Below are positions 8,813 to 20,449 of a stretch of 20,449 nt of DNA, piece by piece. The notes beneath the pieces are model-generated. The model had not been told where the DNA came from. It searched no databases and worked only from the letters and a program-made list of their open reading frames with translations. Within the stretch, counting starts at the first letter, position 1. The number at the start of each line of letters is the position of its first letter. The translations under genes were made by a program, and so were the position numbers. Location of the stretch: the IMG/VR virus record IMGVR_UViG_3300033571_001859, positions 1 to 20,449 of that record; one strand, 5' to 3'. The DNA comes from a virus.

Positions 8813-9417
8813 ACAAACTAGATCTAGAACAATACTCTGACAGCCTTGATTGGGAAATGCGATTATATCAGCAGAGCCAAGGTTATCAATTAAACAAGCC
8901 AATGATACATCAAGATCATAATTGGCAGGCTCTTAAACAAGAAAGATCTCAGCCGTTTGTTCCACAAGCCTCTATTGAAAAAGTCAGCAATATCAGTCTA
9001 ATGCTATTTGCCAATAGTGAATATCAAAAAGGCAATCTGCAATGTGATATCTACAAAGAAGGAGTTAAACAGCCATACACAAAGAATCTAATCTTTGAAG
9101 TCCGTCCTGAACTTACTCCTCGCCAATATAAAGTATGGGATTTGTTGATTACTATGTGTCAAATAGATCTAGAGGGATGCAAACCTCGTCGTGCAAAAAT
9201 ATTTGATGCAGGCAATGCAGAAAGTTATTCAGCGGAGTTTGCCTATTTTGAAATATGGCGTAATCAAGAACTAGTATGGGCTTGCCTACTAGTTGAAGAT
9301 TGGTTATTGCCATTGAATATCAAACTAGATCTATATCAAGATAAAGGAGACCTTCGAATGAGTTGTGCCTGGCGTAATCGCATAGCCATTGATAATTGGT
9401 ATAAAGATAATCTATGA
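8809..9417 (+). CDS. Unrecognised phage protein (202 aa)
   Basis: ATG 8809 is preferred over TTG 8803, since GGGAGG at 8798-8803 is well spaced from it and the ATGA overlaps the previous stop. The protein is acidic, aromatic-rich and Trp-rich, with ELTPRQYKVWDLLITMCQID near the middle and WACLLVEDWLLPLNIKLDLY later, suggesting a compact globular domain. The 3' end overlaps the first methyltransferase (ATGA at 9414-9417), so it may be co-translated with it. Function unknown. Confidence 0.6.
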   Translation: MNKLDLEQYSDSLDWEMRLYQQSQGYQLNKPMIHQDHNWQALKQERSQPFVPQASIEKVSNISLMLFANSEYQKGNLQCDIYKEGVKQPYTKNLIFEVRPELTPRQYKVWDLLITMCQIDLEGCKPRRAKIFDAGNAESYSAEFAYFEIWRNQELVWACLLVEDWLLPLNIKLDLYQDKGDLRMSCAWRNRIAIDNWYKDNL

Positions 9418-10148
9418 CCTACACCCTACACCAACAAGACTGCCTTGACTGGATGAAACAACAAGCAGACAACAGCATAGATACAATTCTATTTTCGCCT
9501 CCTTATAACAAAAAAGGTTTTAGAGGTGGGCAAAGAACATCAACTAAACTATGGAACAAAGCCAATATTGATTACGCTACCTATGATGACAATATGCCAG
9601 AAGCAGACTATCAAGCGTGGCAAATAAACATTATGAATGAATGCTATAGAATAATCAAACCTACCGGCAGTATATTTTATCAACATAAAATACGCAACTG
9701 GGCCCGCAAAGGTAGTCATCCCATGGAATGGCTGAGTAAAGTTCGGGCTCAATTCTATCAAGAAATAGTTTGGCATAGAAAAAACACTATGGCCATGGAT
9801 GAACGCTATCTGTTTAGCACCACAGAAAGAATATATTGGTTTTGTAAAGATAAACCCAATGTATATAAACAACAACTTGCAGAAGAATATAAAAGCGATG
9901 TATGGGTTATAACACCGCAAAGACAGCAAGGACATCCAGCACCATTCCCAGAACAACTAGCAGAAAATTGTATTCTACTAACAACACAGCCTGACGATAT
10001 TGTTTATGATCCGTTCGCAGGCAGTGGCACCACATTGGCAGTGGCAGAGAGATTGAGGAGAACAAGTGTAGGCACAGAAATAGATCCTGCTTATATTGCA
10101 TTAGCCACAAAAAGATTAAATCAACCCTCAATAAGGTTATTTGAATAA
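9414..10148 (+). CDS. DNA methyltransferase, N4-cytosine/N6-adenine family (copy 1)
   Basis: The 244-residue protein has catalytic motif IV as SPPY (residues 28-31) near the N-terminus and the S-adenosylmethionine-binding motif I as DPFAGSGTT (199-207) near the C-terminus, followed by VGTEIDPAYIALATKRL. The order IV before I is that of beta-class amino-methyltransferases. SPPY rather than DPPY is more common in N4-cytosine enzymes, but base choice cannot be fixed from this. No restriction enzyme gene is next to it, so it is an orphan that may protect phage DNA from host nucleases or affect packaging or gene control. The stop overlaps the start of its paralogue. Confidence 0.88.
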   Translation: MTYTLHQQDCLDWMKQQADNSIDTILFSPPYNKKGFRGGQRTSTKLWNKANIDYATYDDNMPEADYQAWQINIMNECYRIIKPTGSIFYQHKIRNWARKGSHPMEWLSKVRAQFYQEIVWHRKNTMAMDERYLFSTTERIYWFCKDKPNVYKQQLAEEYKSDVWVITPQRQQGHPAPFPEQLAENCILLTTQPDDIVYDPFAGSGTTLAVAERLRRTSVGTEIDPAYIALATKRLNQPSIRLFE

Positions 10149-10927
10149 TGACCTACACACTACATCAACAGGACTGCCTAGCGTGGTTAAAAACACAACC
10201 AGATGATTCAGTAGACATCTGTGTTTCAAGCCCTCCCTATAACATTGGCATAGGCTATAACAAATACAAAGACCGACGCAAAGATTACCTTGCTTGGCAA
10301 GAGGAAATATGGCGTGAAGTATGTCGTGTGCTTAAACCCACTGGACACTTGTTCTTAAACATAGCACCTACCAAACGAGAACCATTCTTGCCTTGGCTAG
10401 TGGCTGCTAATGTGCCCTGGAAGGTGCAGAATCAAATCATATGGGCCAAGAGCATTGAATTCCAAGGGCATATACACGGCAGAAGCACCGTGAACATCAA
10501 CAGCCAATATGCACTACCTAATGGATGGGAAATGGTTTGGCATTTCACACACAAAGGCAAAACACCAATCAGTCTCCAACAATCAAGTGTTCCATACCGT
10601 CCTGAGTATGCAGAAGAAAATACAAGACGCACTGGCAGAACACATCGCCCAACTACCACTGCTTGGCATATTGGTTATGAAACAACAGGATCATGGGGAC
10701 AAGCATCAGCCGCAGTCAAAGGCACTACAAAACATCCAGCCATATTCCCCCGTGAACTAGTGCGTCATTGTCTTAATGTAGCAGGAGCACAACCTGGACA
10801 TACGATATTTGATCCATTTGCAGGCACAGGCACTACACTATTAGTAGCCAAAGAAATGGGCATAGACAGCATCGGCTGTGAAATAGATCCTGACTATGCT
10901 GCCTTTATACATCAAAGGCTATTATGA
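10148..10927 (+). CDS. DNA methyltransferase, N4-cytosine/N6-adenine family (copy 2)
   Basis: This 259-residue protein starts with the same MTYTLHQQDCL as copy 1 and has SPPY at residues 28-31 and DPFAGTGTT at 222-230, then IGCEIDPDY. The middle part, residues about 60-200, differs strongly from copy 1. As target recognition in this class usually lies between the two motifs, the pair may recognise different sequences. The shared N-terminus and tandem overlapping arrangement suggest duplication and divergence. The SHIGYETTGSW-like region is Trp-rich, as in cell-cycle or phage orphan enzymes. Specificity cannot be read from the sequence. Confidence 0.88.
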   Translation: MTYTLHQQDCLAWLKTQPDDSVDICVSSPPYNIGIGYNKYKDRRKDYLAWQEEIWREVCRVLKPTGHLFLNIAPTKREPFLPWLVAANVPWKVQNQIIWAKSIEFQGHIHGRSTVNINSQYALPNGWEMVWHFTHKGKTPISLQQSSVPYRPEYAEENTRRTGRTHRPTTTAWHIGYETTGSWGQASAAVKGTTKHPAIFPRELVRHCLNVAGAQPGHTIFDPFAGTGTTLLVAKEMGIDSIGCEIDPDYAAFIHQRLL

Positions 10928-17467: not shown

Positions 17468-17941
17468 ATGACGCCTGAACAAGCACTAGAACTAGGGCTA
17501 GAACCCGCCACACCTGAAACTGAAGGCACTCAAGAAACCTTTGAGATTATTCCCTATAAGGAAGAAGCCAGAGATCCCTCCAAAACAGGACCTAGCCCCA
17601 AGAAGTTAGTAGCAGTAGAAGTTCTAGGTTATGAAGTGGGCAGAGGGCTACGCAAGAAGGTTGTGAGCCCAGAAGATGTTTACAAACTAGCCGCATTAGG
17701 CATGAGCAATAGAGAAATTGCCCGTTGGTTTGACATAGATCATCAGGTGGTAAACTACAATTTTCAAACAATCATAGATAAAGGCCGTGAGGACATGAAA
17801 ACCAGTCTTCGCCGTGCTATGTTGAAGAATGCCTTGAGTGGCAATGCCGCACTACAGATCTTTCTAGCCAAGAACATGCTGGGCATGAGCGATAATCCAC
17901 ATACTTCAGAAGATAACAAAATACTTCCGTGGAATGATTAG
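17468..17941 (+). CDS. terS: Terminase small subunit (TerS)
   Basis: The 157-residue protein has a flexible acidic N-terminus (residues 1-40). A helix-turn-helix follows at about residues 75-105 (VYKLAALGMSNREIARWFDID, quoted minus its last contact residues). A helical oligomerisation region comes next (KTSLRRAMLKNALSGNAALQ, IFLAKNMLGMSDNP). This arrangement is typical of small terminases that bind the packaging site and hand DNA to TerL. Its place before TerL and portal supports the call. Its stop codon overlaps by 4 bases the stop of the minus-strand endonuclease, so the insertion there kept TerS intact. The gene has seven CTAG tetranucleotides. Confidence 0.82.
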   Translation: MTPEQALELGLEPATPETEGTQETFEIIPYKEEARDPSKTGPSPKKLVAVEVLGYEVGRGLRKKVVSPEDVYKLAALGMSNREIARWFDIDHQVVNYNFQTIIDKGREDMKTSLRRAMLKNALSGNAALQIFLAKNMLGMSDNPHTSEDNKILPWND

Positions 17942-18441
17942 ATGTGTTTATATAATTCACCACGAGCAATGCGTCTAACAAGTTCTACCTTGCAACCATA
18001 TTTGGCTGCTACTTCTTTGAGATTAGAACCATTGTTATATCCCACACGATGGCCTACTTGTGCTTCTGCTTTGATTTTGCGAGCAATGTCATCTGTAATA
18101 GAAGCGTGGGCTTGTTTCTCACCTTTTGGAGCCCGTGCCCTACCTTTTAACAACTTGTCAAGATTATTGTCAGCAGGAGTTCCTATAAACAAATGCTCAG
18201 GATTCACACAACTGGGATTGTCGCAACAATGACAAACAACATAACCCTTGGGAATTGTGTGCCCTGTGATCATCAAGATAAAGCGATGAGCACCAGTTTG
18301 TTTATAACTATTAGAGTCTTCCAATTTATAAGAGAATTTATGATAGCCATCTCTATCTTTAGATCCTTGAAAAGCCCAGCATCCAGATTGCCTAATTACT
18401 TTAGACCAAAAGAGGTCAATAGATTGTTTTCGTATAAGCAT
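17938..18441 (-). CDS. HNH homing endonuclease inserted between terS and terL
   Basis: This is the only well-supported minus-strand gene. The 167-residue product has the HNH_3-type core: GCWAFQG (20-26), AHR (51-53), then VVCHCCDNPSCVNPEHLFIG, with candidate catalytic H71, N80 and H83 and zinc-type cysteines, and DNNLDKLLKGR. Residues about 112-164 look like a helix-turn-helix DNA-binding tail (NLKEVAAKYGCKVELVRRIA). Such enzymes cut intron- or endonuclease-free alleles near their own gene and spread by repair. It fits tail-to-tail against terS (4-base overlap) and starts 14 bases from the terL start on the other strand. It has no CTAG site in 504 bases, unlike its neighbours, suggesting recent acquisition. 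Confidence 0.88.
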   Translation of the reverse strand: MLIRKQSIDLFWSKVIRQSGCWAFQGSKDRDGYHKFSYKLEDSNSYKQTGAHRFILMITGHTIPKGYVVCHCCDNPSCVNPEHLFIGTPADNNLDKLLKGRARAPKGEKQAHASITDDIARKIKAEAQVGHRVGYNNGSNLKEVAAKYGCKVELVRRIARGELYKHI

Positions 18442-18455
18442 AAGGATATTATACT

Positions 18456-19697
18456 ATGCCTTTAAGCACAGCACAACTACAAATCGCTCAAAGCGAAAGG
18501 AGATTCAGGACGGCCATTTGTGGCCGTCGCTGACTACGATTTGGCAAAACCTATCTAGCCATTAGAGAACTGGCTCGCTTTGCCCGTTTTCCCAACTCTG
18601 TCTGCTGGTATATTGCACCTACTCGTATGCAGGGCAAAGGCATTGTGTGGGAAGAACTCAAAGACAGACTAGGCAAACTCAACTGGATTGCCAAAACCAA
18701 TGAATCAGAACTCACAATCACACTGATCAATGGCAGTGAAATCACAGTTAAGTCAGCAGATAGTTATGATCGTATGCGTGGATTCTCAGTGAACTTCTGT
18801 GTGTTTGATGAGTTTGCAGACATGGACCCAGAAGTATGGACTGTGGTCCGCCCAACACTATCTGACACACAGGGTCACGCTTTCTTTATCGGCACACCCA
18901 AAGGTGGTCGTAGTAGTTGGGCCTATGACATCTACACCGCTGAGATCAAGAACCCAGATGCGTGGCAGTCATGGACATTTACCACACTGGACGGTGGTCG
19001 TGTATTACCAGAAGAAATAGAAGCAGCCAAAGCAGATATGGACGAGCGTATGTTCCGCCAGGAGTATATGGCTACTTGGGAAGAATCAGCAGGGCAGGTC
19101 TATTACGCATTCAGCCGTGAACACAATGTGAAAACACCAGAGTATCTAAACACTGATGCCATATACATTGGGGCCGATTTTAATATTACGCCTCTATGTG
19201 CGGCTGTGGCTGTGCGCCAAGGAGAAACGCTCTATGTCATCGATGAAATCACGCTCTATTCCTCAAATACTGATGAACTCGCAGATGAGATTAAGAGTAG
19301 ATACCCAAATTCAAAAGTGTTCCTCTACCCAGATCCAGCAGGGTCTGCCCGCTCTACTAAAAGCGGAGGCCGCAGTGATCACACCATCTTGGCCAACGCA
19401 GGATTCATTGTCAAAGCCCCACGCAGCCACACCCCAATCAGAGACAGAGTGAATGCTGTCAACAGCCGTTTATGTTCAGCAACAGGCATTAGAAGTCTCT
19501 ATATCAGCCCTAAGTGTAAATACACGATACAATGCCTAGAGCGTCAGGTCTATAAAGAAGGTTCAACTGCCATTCCAGAGAAAGGTGAGTTTGATCACAT
19601 GAATGATGCCTTGGGCTATATGGTAGATTACCTATGGCCCGTTAAGCGTGATAGAGAATACCAACCGCCAGGAAGATGGACACATCAAATTGGCTAA
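18456..19697 (+). CDS. terL: Terminase large subunit (TerL), interrupted by an in-frame TGA in Walker A; possible translational bypass
   Basis: ATG 18456 follows AAGGA (18442-18446). The frame reads 25 codons to ...FRTAICGRR, then TGA (18531-18533), CTA, CGA, then FGKTYLAIREL and on without further stops to TAA 19697. Without the 9 bases TGA-CTA-CGA the product is 410 residues with an intact Walker A (GRR-FGKT), Walker B (VNFCVFDEFADM) and nuclease acidic residues (YIGADFN, LYPDPAG, FDHMNDALGY). TerL is the packaging ATPase and nuclease and is essential. The sequence after the stop shows no decay. If translation restarted, the first ATG (18627) would give 356 residues without Walker A. I favour bypass from CGC to CGA; readthrough, a pseudogene or an error are alternatives. 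Portal follows after 15 bases. Confidence 0.85.
18496..18539 (+). other. Putative minimal translational bypass element in terL
   Basis: Order of parts: AAAGGAGA (18496-18503), a Shine-Dalgarno-like stretch; a hairpin with perfect 8-bp stem GACGGCCA (18509-18516) / TGGCCGTC (18521-18528) and loop TTTG; a possible 4-bp extension TCAG (18505-18508) with CTGA (18530-18533) across one bulged G; proposed take-off codon CGC (18528-18530); stop TGA; CTA; proposed landing codon CGA (18537-18539); resumption at TTT. CGC and CGA are both read by bacterial tRNA-Arg with anticodon ICG, so the same peptidyl-tRNA could re-pair after skipping. T4 gene 60 has the same logic with GGA codons, a stop after take-off and an upstream stem-loop. 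Confidence 0.5.
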
Positions 19698-19712: not shown

Positions 19713-20449
19713 ATGATTCAGACACTAACGGAACAATACCTAGAAGTAGTTTCCACAAATCAATTATACATTAGAAACAGAGATCATTGGCAATATCTGT
19801 TAGAAAGTTATATGGGTGGCATTGATTACGCCAATGGACAACACCTTACAAAATATGTAAATGAAACTGCTGGTGAGTATGCTGCCAGACTTAAGAGCAC
19901 ACACCTAGAAAATCACTGCCAATCAGTGGTTTCTACCTATATGAGTTTCTTGTTCCGTGAAGAACCCGACAGAGATTTTGAGGGCCTAGAACTAGATCCT
20001 ATGGTAGAAGACTTCTTAAAAGATGCTGATCTAGATGGACGCAGCCTAGATGCGTTTATGAAAGAAGTGGCCATATGGTCATCAGTGTTTGGACATTGTT
20101 GGGTGTTGATAGTCAAGCCCAATGTAGGTGCTGAGACCAAAGGTGATGAACTGGCCTTGGGTGTTAGACCCTATGTAAACCTAATCACACCACTCACAGT
20201 CAGCGATTGGCGTTGGAGACGCAATGCCAATGGCCGTTATGATCTAGAATACCTCAAGTATATTGAAGAAGGCAATGACACCATCTCAACTATTCGTGAG
20301 TGGTTTACCAATGAAATCCACACCTACATTGTAGATCATCAAAGCAAGAAAGTATTAGAGCACATTGTGGAACCTAATCCATTGGGCACAATTCCTGCAA
20401 TATGTGCCTACAGTCGCAAGAGCCCTGTGCGTGGTGTTGGAGTCAGTGA
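19713..20449 (+). CDS. Portal protein, N-terminal part (partial, cut by the window edge)
   Basis: ATG 19713 follows AAGGACAACGA. The frame stays open for 245 codons to the right edge. Features fit a DUF4055-like or related portal: an N-terminal helix RNRDHWQYLLESYMGG, then KYVNETAGEYAARLKSTHLE and a VVSTYMSFLFREEP segment, then LDGRSLDAFMKEVAIWSSVF leading to GHCWVLI and the VRPYVNLITPLTVSDWRW strand region. Portal forms the dodecameric channel at the capsid vertex to which TerL docks. Gene order TerS-TerL-portal supports this. Fold-family naming is tentative because the C-terminus is missing. Confidence 0.78.
   Translation, partial: MIQTLTEQYLEVVSTNQLYIRNRDHWQYLLESYMGGIDYANGQHLTKYVNETAGEYAARLKSTHLENHCQSVVSTYMSFLFREEPDRDFEGLELDPMVEDFLKDADLDGRSLDAFMKEVAIWSSVFGHCWVLIVKPNVGAETKGDELALGVRPYVNLITPLTVSDWRWRRNANGRYDLEYLKYIEEGNDTISTIREWFTNEIHTYIVDHQSKKVLEHIVEPNPLGTIPAICAYSRKSPVRGVGVS

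Follow-up and report, generated by a model that had tools for sequence, protein, structure and literature searches.

Near the right-hand end of the window, as we call the whole 20,449-nucleotide stretch of viral DNA analysed here, the gene for the large terminase subunit (terL) follows a small-subunit-like gene (terS) and a homing-type endonuclease gene and precedes the portal gene, and it is interrupted by an in-frame stop codon (Table 1). Read from the ATG at 18456, the frame is MPLSTAQLQIAQSERRFRTAICGRR*LRFGKTYLAIREL, with a short surplus, beginning at the stop, that separates CGRR from FGKT of the Walker A motif. Downstream of the TGA the frame remains open to 19697 and matches terminase families. 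In the automatic listing of open reading frames the gene starts only at 18627, the first in-frame start after the TGA, which lies past Walker A. The original prediction had been made from these letters alone, and its description of the site holds: frame translation confirms a TGA at terL codon 26 between GRR and FGKT (18531-18533), and the AAGGAG element (18497-18502) and the 8-bp stem (18509-18516/18521-18528) that ends at the take-off codon are both present as described.

Table 1. Features of the interrupted terL gene and its surroundings, in window coordinates
Feature	Position	Strand	Basis
Terminase small subunit-like gene	17468..17941	+	PHROG 309 terminase small subunit, E 5e-5
HNH_3 homing-type endonuclease gene between terS and terL	17938..18441	-	Pfam HNH_3, E 4.7e-9; PHROGs HNH
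Putative foreign, co-conversion-like tract (HNH gene, terL 5' end and surplus), stopping at the surplus	17938..18539	.	Identity to close relatives
terL, large terminase subunit, with in-frame TGA at codon 26	18456..19697	+	Pfam Terminase_6N; PHROG terminase large subunit
terL codons 1-25, MPLSTAQLQIAQSERRFRTAICGRR, the last being the take-off codon	18456..18530	+	Homologous to relatives' N-termini
41-base tract identical in the distant relative L015	18489..18529	+	Alignment
Internal Shine-Dalgarno-like AAGGAG, just 5' of the stem-loop	18497..18502	+	Sequence
Stem-loop 5' of take-off, GACGGCCA-TTTG-TGGCCGTC	18509..18528	+	Folding
Putative take-off codon CGC (Arg25)	18528..18530	+	Sequence, codon statistics
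Surplus TGA CTA CGA, 9 bases, within Walker A	18531..18539	+	Comparison with relatives
Stop codon TGA, in frame (codon 26)	18531..18533	+	Frame translation
Putative landing codon CGA; decoding would restart at TTT 18540	18537..18539	+	Sequence; matched CGH codons in all six lineages
Portal gene, running past the window end	19713..20447	+	PHROG portal, E 1e-34

The surplus stands out against an otherwise constant motif. Comparison with 70-odd TerL relatives in which the N-terminus is covered confirmed the predicted nine extra bases, TGA CTA CGA: these relatives have no surplus and a motif that is [C/A]GRRFGKT or close to it, save for L001 and L015. The first has the same allele as the window in a separate IMG/VR contig, identical across 3,081 bases and differing at 13 bases in the portal gene, so that the allele has been assembled more than once, perhaps from one population. 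The second carries a sense surplus of 6 bases (CGA CGG CGA). Pattern scans of IMG/VR for the stop-hop layout, with 6-base and 9-base TGA patterns, revealed four further TGA lineages (C to F) in 9 contigs. The site reads GGG CGG CGC TGA CGA TTT in lineage C (L100, L105), GGG CGA CGC TGA CGA TTT in lineage D (L101, L103, L104) and GGG CGG CGT TGA CGA TGG in lineage E (L117), where the landing codon precedes Trp. Lineage F has GGG CGT CGA TGA ATA CGA TTT in L145 and GGG CGT CGT TGA ATA CGC TTT in L153 and L160. Each pattern gave 29 matches; the TerL genes among them were the known ones and L117 only for the 6-base pattern, and L082 (the L001 contig), L145, L153 and L160 only for the 9-base pattern. 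In all six lineages the surplus occupies the identical position within Walker A, and every lineage retains FGKT or WGKT and a full-length downstream frame; the codon directly after take-off is TGA in five of them and CGG in L015. In a phylogeny of 79 TerL proteins, for which only the region after the surplus was used, genes with a surplus are scattered over six positions between relatives without one, and the supported branches require six changes. Alignment with close relatives, which the original prediction had proposed as a check, finds the surplus real, and it recurs in five TGA lineages and, in sense form, in L015.

Other searches define the reach of this pattern. Beyond the window allele and L015, all matches to a gapped Walker A scan of the CGRR type were normal genes in another frame. 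A protein search of GTDB genome contigs found no TerL relative, and the three matches to the stop-hop pattern there were all chance; cultured phages yielded no close relative, at the DNA level, of the sites in the window, L100, L103 or L117. All contigs concerned are metagenomic, which would favour an artefact of assembly or sequencing, but the surplus lies at the same codon in 11 other contigs, from six lineages and at least 10 IMG data sets, and we regard the chance of such an error as negligible.

Recurrence need not mean six independent inventions. The window and L015 share the 41 identical bases at 18489-18529 and are about 71% identical in the rest of the 5' region and beyond the surplus; judging from this contrast, the two probably exchanged a short tract, and part of the recurrence may reflect such transfer. 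Exchange within this gene is also seen elsewhere. The TerL C-termini of L117 and L103 (DAASYCVDFLFPLVKERIEDPYAASTWGHALA) are identical and their portals nearly so, with 60% identity in the remaining TerL, a pattern that on alignment is a recombination boundary inside terL. Upstream of terS, L015 (1205-2086) and L104 (776-1489) contain weakly similar ORFs of 294 and 238 aa with no Pfam match, each preceded by an AAA+-like ORF; both phages carry a surplus.

Is the interrupted gene still expressed as a whole? Two pairs of TGA-bearing genes have diverged enough to address this. L103 and L104 differ at 48 terL bases with a dN/dS of 0.088, and L145 and L160, both with the TGA and 9 bases, differ at 286 bases (dS about 1.1) with a dN/dS of 0.141. 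From these substitution patterns, terL in both pairs is under purifying selection through the TGA. The original prediction had named decayed downstream terL frames in relatives as a refuting observation; the frames are instead full-length and constrained. A terL killed by a lethal insert that homing or replication slippage left behind, in a defective phage, would suit the window pair taken singly, since the window and L001 show zero terL substitutions and selection on the window allele itself is not measurable. It is at odds with the purifying selection on the same layout in L103/L104 and L145/L160 and with the FGKT or WGKT and full-length downstream frames kept in all lineages, and we consider it very unlikely. 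Given recurrence in six lineages and selection in two pairs, neither error nor a non-functional allele, both offered originally as alternatives, is borne out.

Several ways of tolerating a stop codon could be set aside. In the interval from the TGA to the first in-frame restart codon, L103 and L104 show 5 synonymous and 0 nonsynonymous changes, and L145 and L160 show 4 and 0; restart cannot account for this conservation of the P-loop stretch, and internal restart, which in the window would begin past Walker A, was ruled out. The code is not reassigned to read TGA as sense, because 4 of the window's 20 long ORFs and 3 of the 16 in L100 end in TGA, and long ORFs are open under table 11. Selenocysteine was dropped for want of a rationale for Sec in a P-loop, as was RNA splicing, 6 or 9 bases being no intron.

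The RNA upstream of the stop is structured in most of these genes. In the window the 3' arm of the perfect 8-bp stem ends on base 1 of the take-off CGC, and 3 further pairs (CAG/CTG, 18506-18508/18530-18532) can form outside it. Shuffling of dinucleotides gives it a z score of -4.6 and shuffling of synonymous codons one of -2.7 (2 of 500 equally stable), so that by itself it is only moderately unusual. Across lineages, with synonymous shuffles, z ranges from -2.2 to -5.7 in the window, L015, L100, L103, L104 and L117, as against a mean of 0.07 (sd 1.05) in 44 relatives, and in the same six genes the last base of the 3' arm is the first or second of the take-off codon. A hairpin adjoining take-off is thus a feature of the sense lineage and of four of the five TGA lineages, and not of surplus-free relatives; in lineage F (L145, L160) a 54-base test found none. 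Of the 16 pairs in the L103 fold, 13-16 form in L100, L103 and L117 and 5-8 in surplus-free relatives, and one stem pair is altered on both sides between L100 and L103. A Shine-Dalgarno-like AGGAG, AAGGA or GGAGG lies upstream in 5 of 7 surplus genes tested versus 4 of 44 surplus-free relatives. The hairpins may also bear on where the extra bases came from. The surplus in L015 creates a 12-base palindrome, GCCGTCGACGGC (2896-2915), and the extra CTG of the window lengthens its hairpin by the CAG/CTG pairs; both look as if the adjoining hairpin had served as template, which hints at an origin by quasi-palindrome mutagenesis.

The codons on either side of the gap are equally regular. Take-off and landing codons are CGT, CGC or CGA (CGH) in all six lineages, every surplus containing a second CGH arginine codon, whereas the homologous arginine codon of surplus-free relatives is CGH in 28 of 68 (41%) and CGA in 2 of 68; the original claim of matched codons at the two ends is upheld. 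In bacteria CGT, CGC and CGA are read by one tRNA-Arg(ICG), presumably so here as well. The surplus is 6 or 9 bases long, and both lengths give the same wild-type P-loop only if they are skipped. The length of this loop is invariant among TerL relatives and equals that of the solved P74-26 terminase (GRQSGKS).

These last features bear on the main rival, programmed UGA readthrough by a near-cognate or suppressor tRNA, which would lengthen the P-loop by two or three residues. In each case the surplus keeps the reading frame, a C follows the TGA in the window, L100, L103 and L117, and TGA followed by C is a leaky context; purifying selection through the stop fits readthrough equally well. L015 also speaks for it and counts against a hop, in that it has a sense CGG where the others have TGA and could simply be translated with two extra Arg. 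Readthrough leaves the constant second CGH codon unexplained, however, and would yield P-loops 2 or 3 residues longer in a family in which, as in P74-26, the length does not vary. Lineage F has TGA-A rather than TGA-C, and no tRNA gene was found in the window. On balance we think readthrough improbable.

The original reading of the site as a bypass held up in every comparison made here. Programmed in-frame translational bypass, or stop-hopping, is in our view the best explanation and a probable one, supported by the recurrence, the selection through the TGA, the matched CGH codons, a product that does not depend on the length of the gap, and the stem-loop. On the comparative evidence the terL site is a real, recurrent and selected recoding site, and we propose the following model for the window allele. 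The ribosome would stall when CGC occupies the P site and UGA the A site. Its peptidyl-tRNA-Arg, presumably with anticodon ICG, would then release CGC, and the stem-loop, with its 3' arm ending on the take-off codon, may zip up and help to pull the mRNA along. Re-pairing of the tRNA with CGA 9 bases on would allow decoding to resume at UUU, and the product would be a terminase with the normal P-loop CGRRFGKT.

How did the surplus come to lie in the P-loop codons? In the window, terL nucleotides 1-75 share only 62-66% identity with close relatives, against 78-85% for these relatives compared with one another, whereas downstream of the surplus the gene is a normal member of its group at 84% identity; a foreign tract therefore spans the HNH gene to the surplus. 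Homing with a cut in the P-loop codons would be expected to leave just such a tract, and the window module probably arrived with the HNH gene through homing-type co-conversion. It is possible, though we hold this only tentatively, that the surplus originated as a resistance cassette that breaks the cleavage site of the endonuclease in the P-loop codons and travels with the HNH gene, a proposal complementary to hopping, which would keep TerL functional, as in T4 mobA/gene 60. The foreign tract that ends at the surplus and the 41 bases common to the window and L015 are consistent with this, as is the restriction of an HNH gene at the terS-terL junction to the window, L001 and L073, whose homologue is 35% identical. 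On the other hand, this junction lacks an HNH gene in lineages C (L100), D (L103), E (L117) and F (L145), and HNH relatives near terL in L073 (at the junction) and L048 (just after terL) accompany a normal Walker A. An endonuclease gene adjoining the interrupted gene together with a co-converted tract occurs in the window and L001 only, and L001 also provides the only close relative of the window HNH gene found in IMG/VR. A homing origin is thus likely for the window surplus and, with no HNH gene at the junction in lineages C to F, for the window only.

The junction itself is variable. In most relatives terS abuts terL with no HNH gene there; methyltransferase-like genes are found in between in L005, L007, L010, L011, L013 and L028, and HNH genes in the window and L073. 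As far as gene order can tell, it is a repeated insertion place for accessory genes.

More broadly, very small hop modules, each consisting of a 5' stem-loop, a CGH take-off codon, UGA and a CGH landing codon, may have settled repeatedly in the P-loop codons of phage terL. There they would shield the gene from a homing or defence nuclease directed at these conserved codons, with in-frame stop-hopping keeping the protein as it was. Natural in-frame stop-hops would then be known for the first time, with at least six acquisitions, partly mobile between phages. We offer this generalisation as speculation that may well prove wrong.

The best-known precedent is T4 gene 60, in which 50 nt are bypassed with matched GGA codons, a UAG, a 5' stem-loop, a nascent-peptide signal and a linked homing endonuclease (PMC5009743). 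The present sites share take-off and landing codons read by one tRNA, a stop or slow codon after take-off and, except in lineage F, a 5' stem-loop, and the window resembles T4 mobA/gene 60 in its HNH gene and its foreign terL 5' tract ending at the surplus. Unlike gene 60, the gap is 6 or 9 bases and in frame, the stop is UGA, and the Shine-Dalgarno-like element is 5' of take-off. A T4-type nascent-peptide signal 25-30 residues upstream was not found: only 25 codons precede take-off, with no KKYK, and T4 needs a longer nascent peptide.

Closer in scale is the terminase of the Streptomyces phage phiHau3 and StrepC.1, for which a likely bypass has been proposed (PMC5009743). In phiHau3 terL a 10-base surplus beginning with TTA lies in Walker A, GGC[TTACTCCGGT]AAG, between KGWG and KDP, and a second 10-base surplus lies near Walker B, where a hairpin ends on base 1 of the take-off codon. 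The Walker A surplus occurs in three cultured phages (phiHau3, GreenWeasel and BroPlease) and is absent in Yosif; both TTA-initial surpluses are present in phiHau3 (L098) and GreenWeasel (L163) and only the first in BroPlease (L161). GenBank annotates terL of these three phages as split or as a misc_feature. The likeness to the window extends to a short surplus in the large-terminase Walker A, take-off and landing codons for the same amino acid, and an HNH gene nearby. In contrast to the window, with its in-frame gap and UGA, phiHau3 has a rare sense codon, UUA, in the A site and a frame-changing gap; its TerL belongs to another family (actinophage), uses Gly and Ser take-off codons and has been explained by UUA regulation. 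The description of the window gap as far shorter than known cases does not survive, since the 10-base terminase bypass of phiHau3 had already been proposed (PMC5009743).

Two further systems invite comparison. In synthetic stop-hops a single amino acid corresponds to 9 nt (Weiss et al. 1987, as cited in PMC5009743). The same arrangement, 9 nt for one residue with matched codons around the stop, is exact in L100, L103 and L117, and is 12 nt in the window, one codon more; unlike the synthetic cases, the present sites are natural and recurrent and have a 5' stem-loop. The byps of Magnusiomyces mitochondria are likewise short inserts with translational bypass, and differ in being mitochondrial, present in many genes, associated with an unused A-site codon and largely context independent (PMC5009743). 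According to a 2016 review, no natural in-frame stop-hop is known, and such sites might hide among supposed readthrough cases (PMC5009743); our own literature searches covered open-access papers, so that a later report may have escaped them.

What is known of programmed bypassing in bacteria and their phages comes almost entirely from a single 50-base case. If our interpretation is true, the sites in several unrelated uncultivated phages would provide the first known natural in-frame stop-hop and possibly a second case of a homing endonuclease coupled to bypass. With five natural TGA lineages of an essential gene at hand, which differ in gap length (6 or 9 bases) and in codons, and with relatives that lack the surplus as controls, the rules of hopping can be tested directly. 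There is also a practical side, as terL is a standard phage marker and may be annotated as split or truncated owing to real recoding.

Elsewhere in the window, at 9414-10927, two neighbouring N6_N4_Mtase DNA methyltransferase genes, whose products both start with MTYTLHQQDCL, form an apparent duplicated pair.
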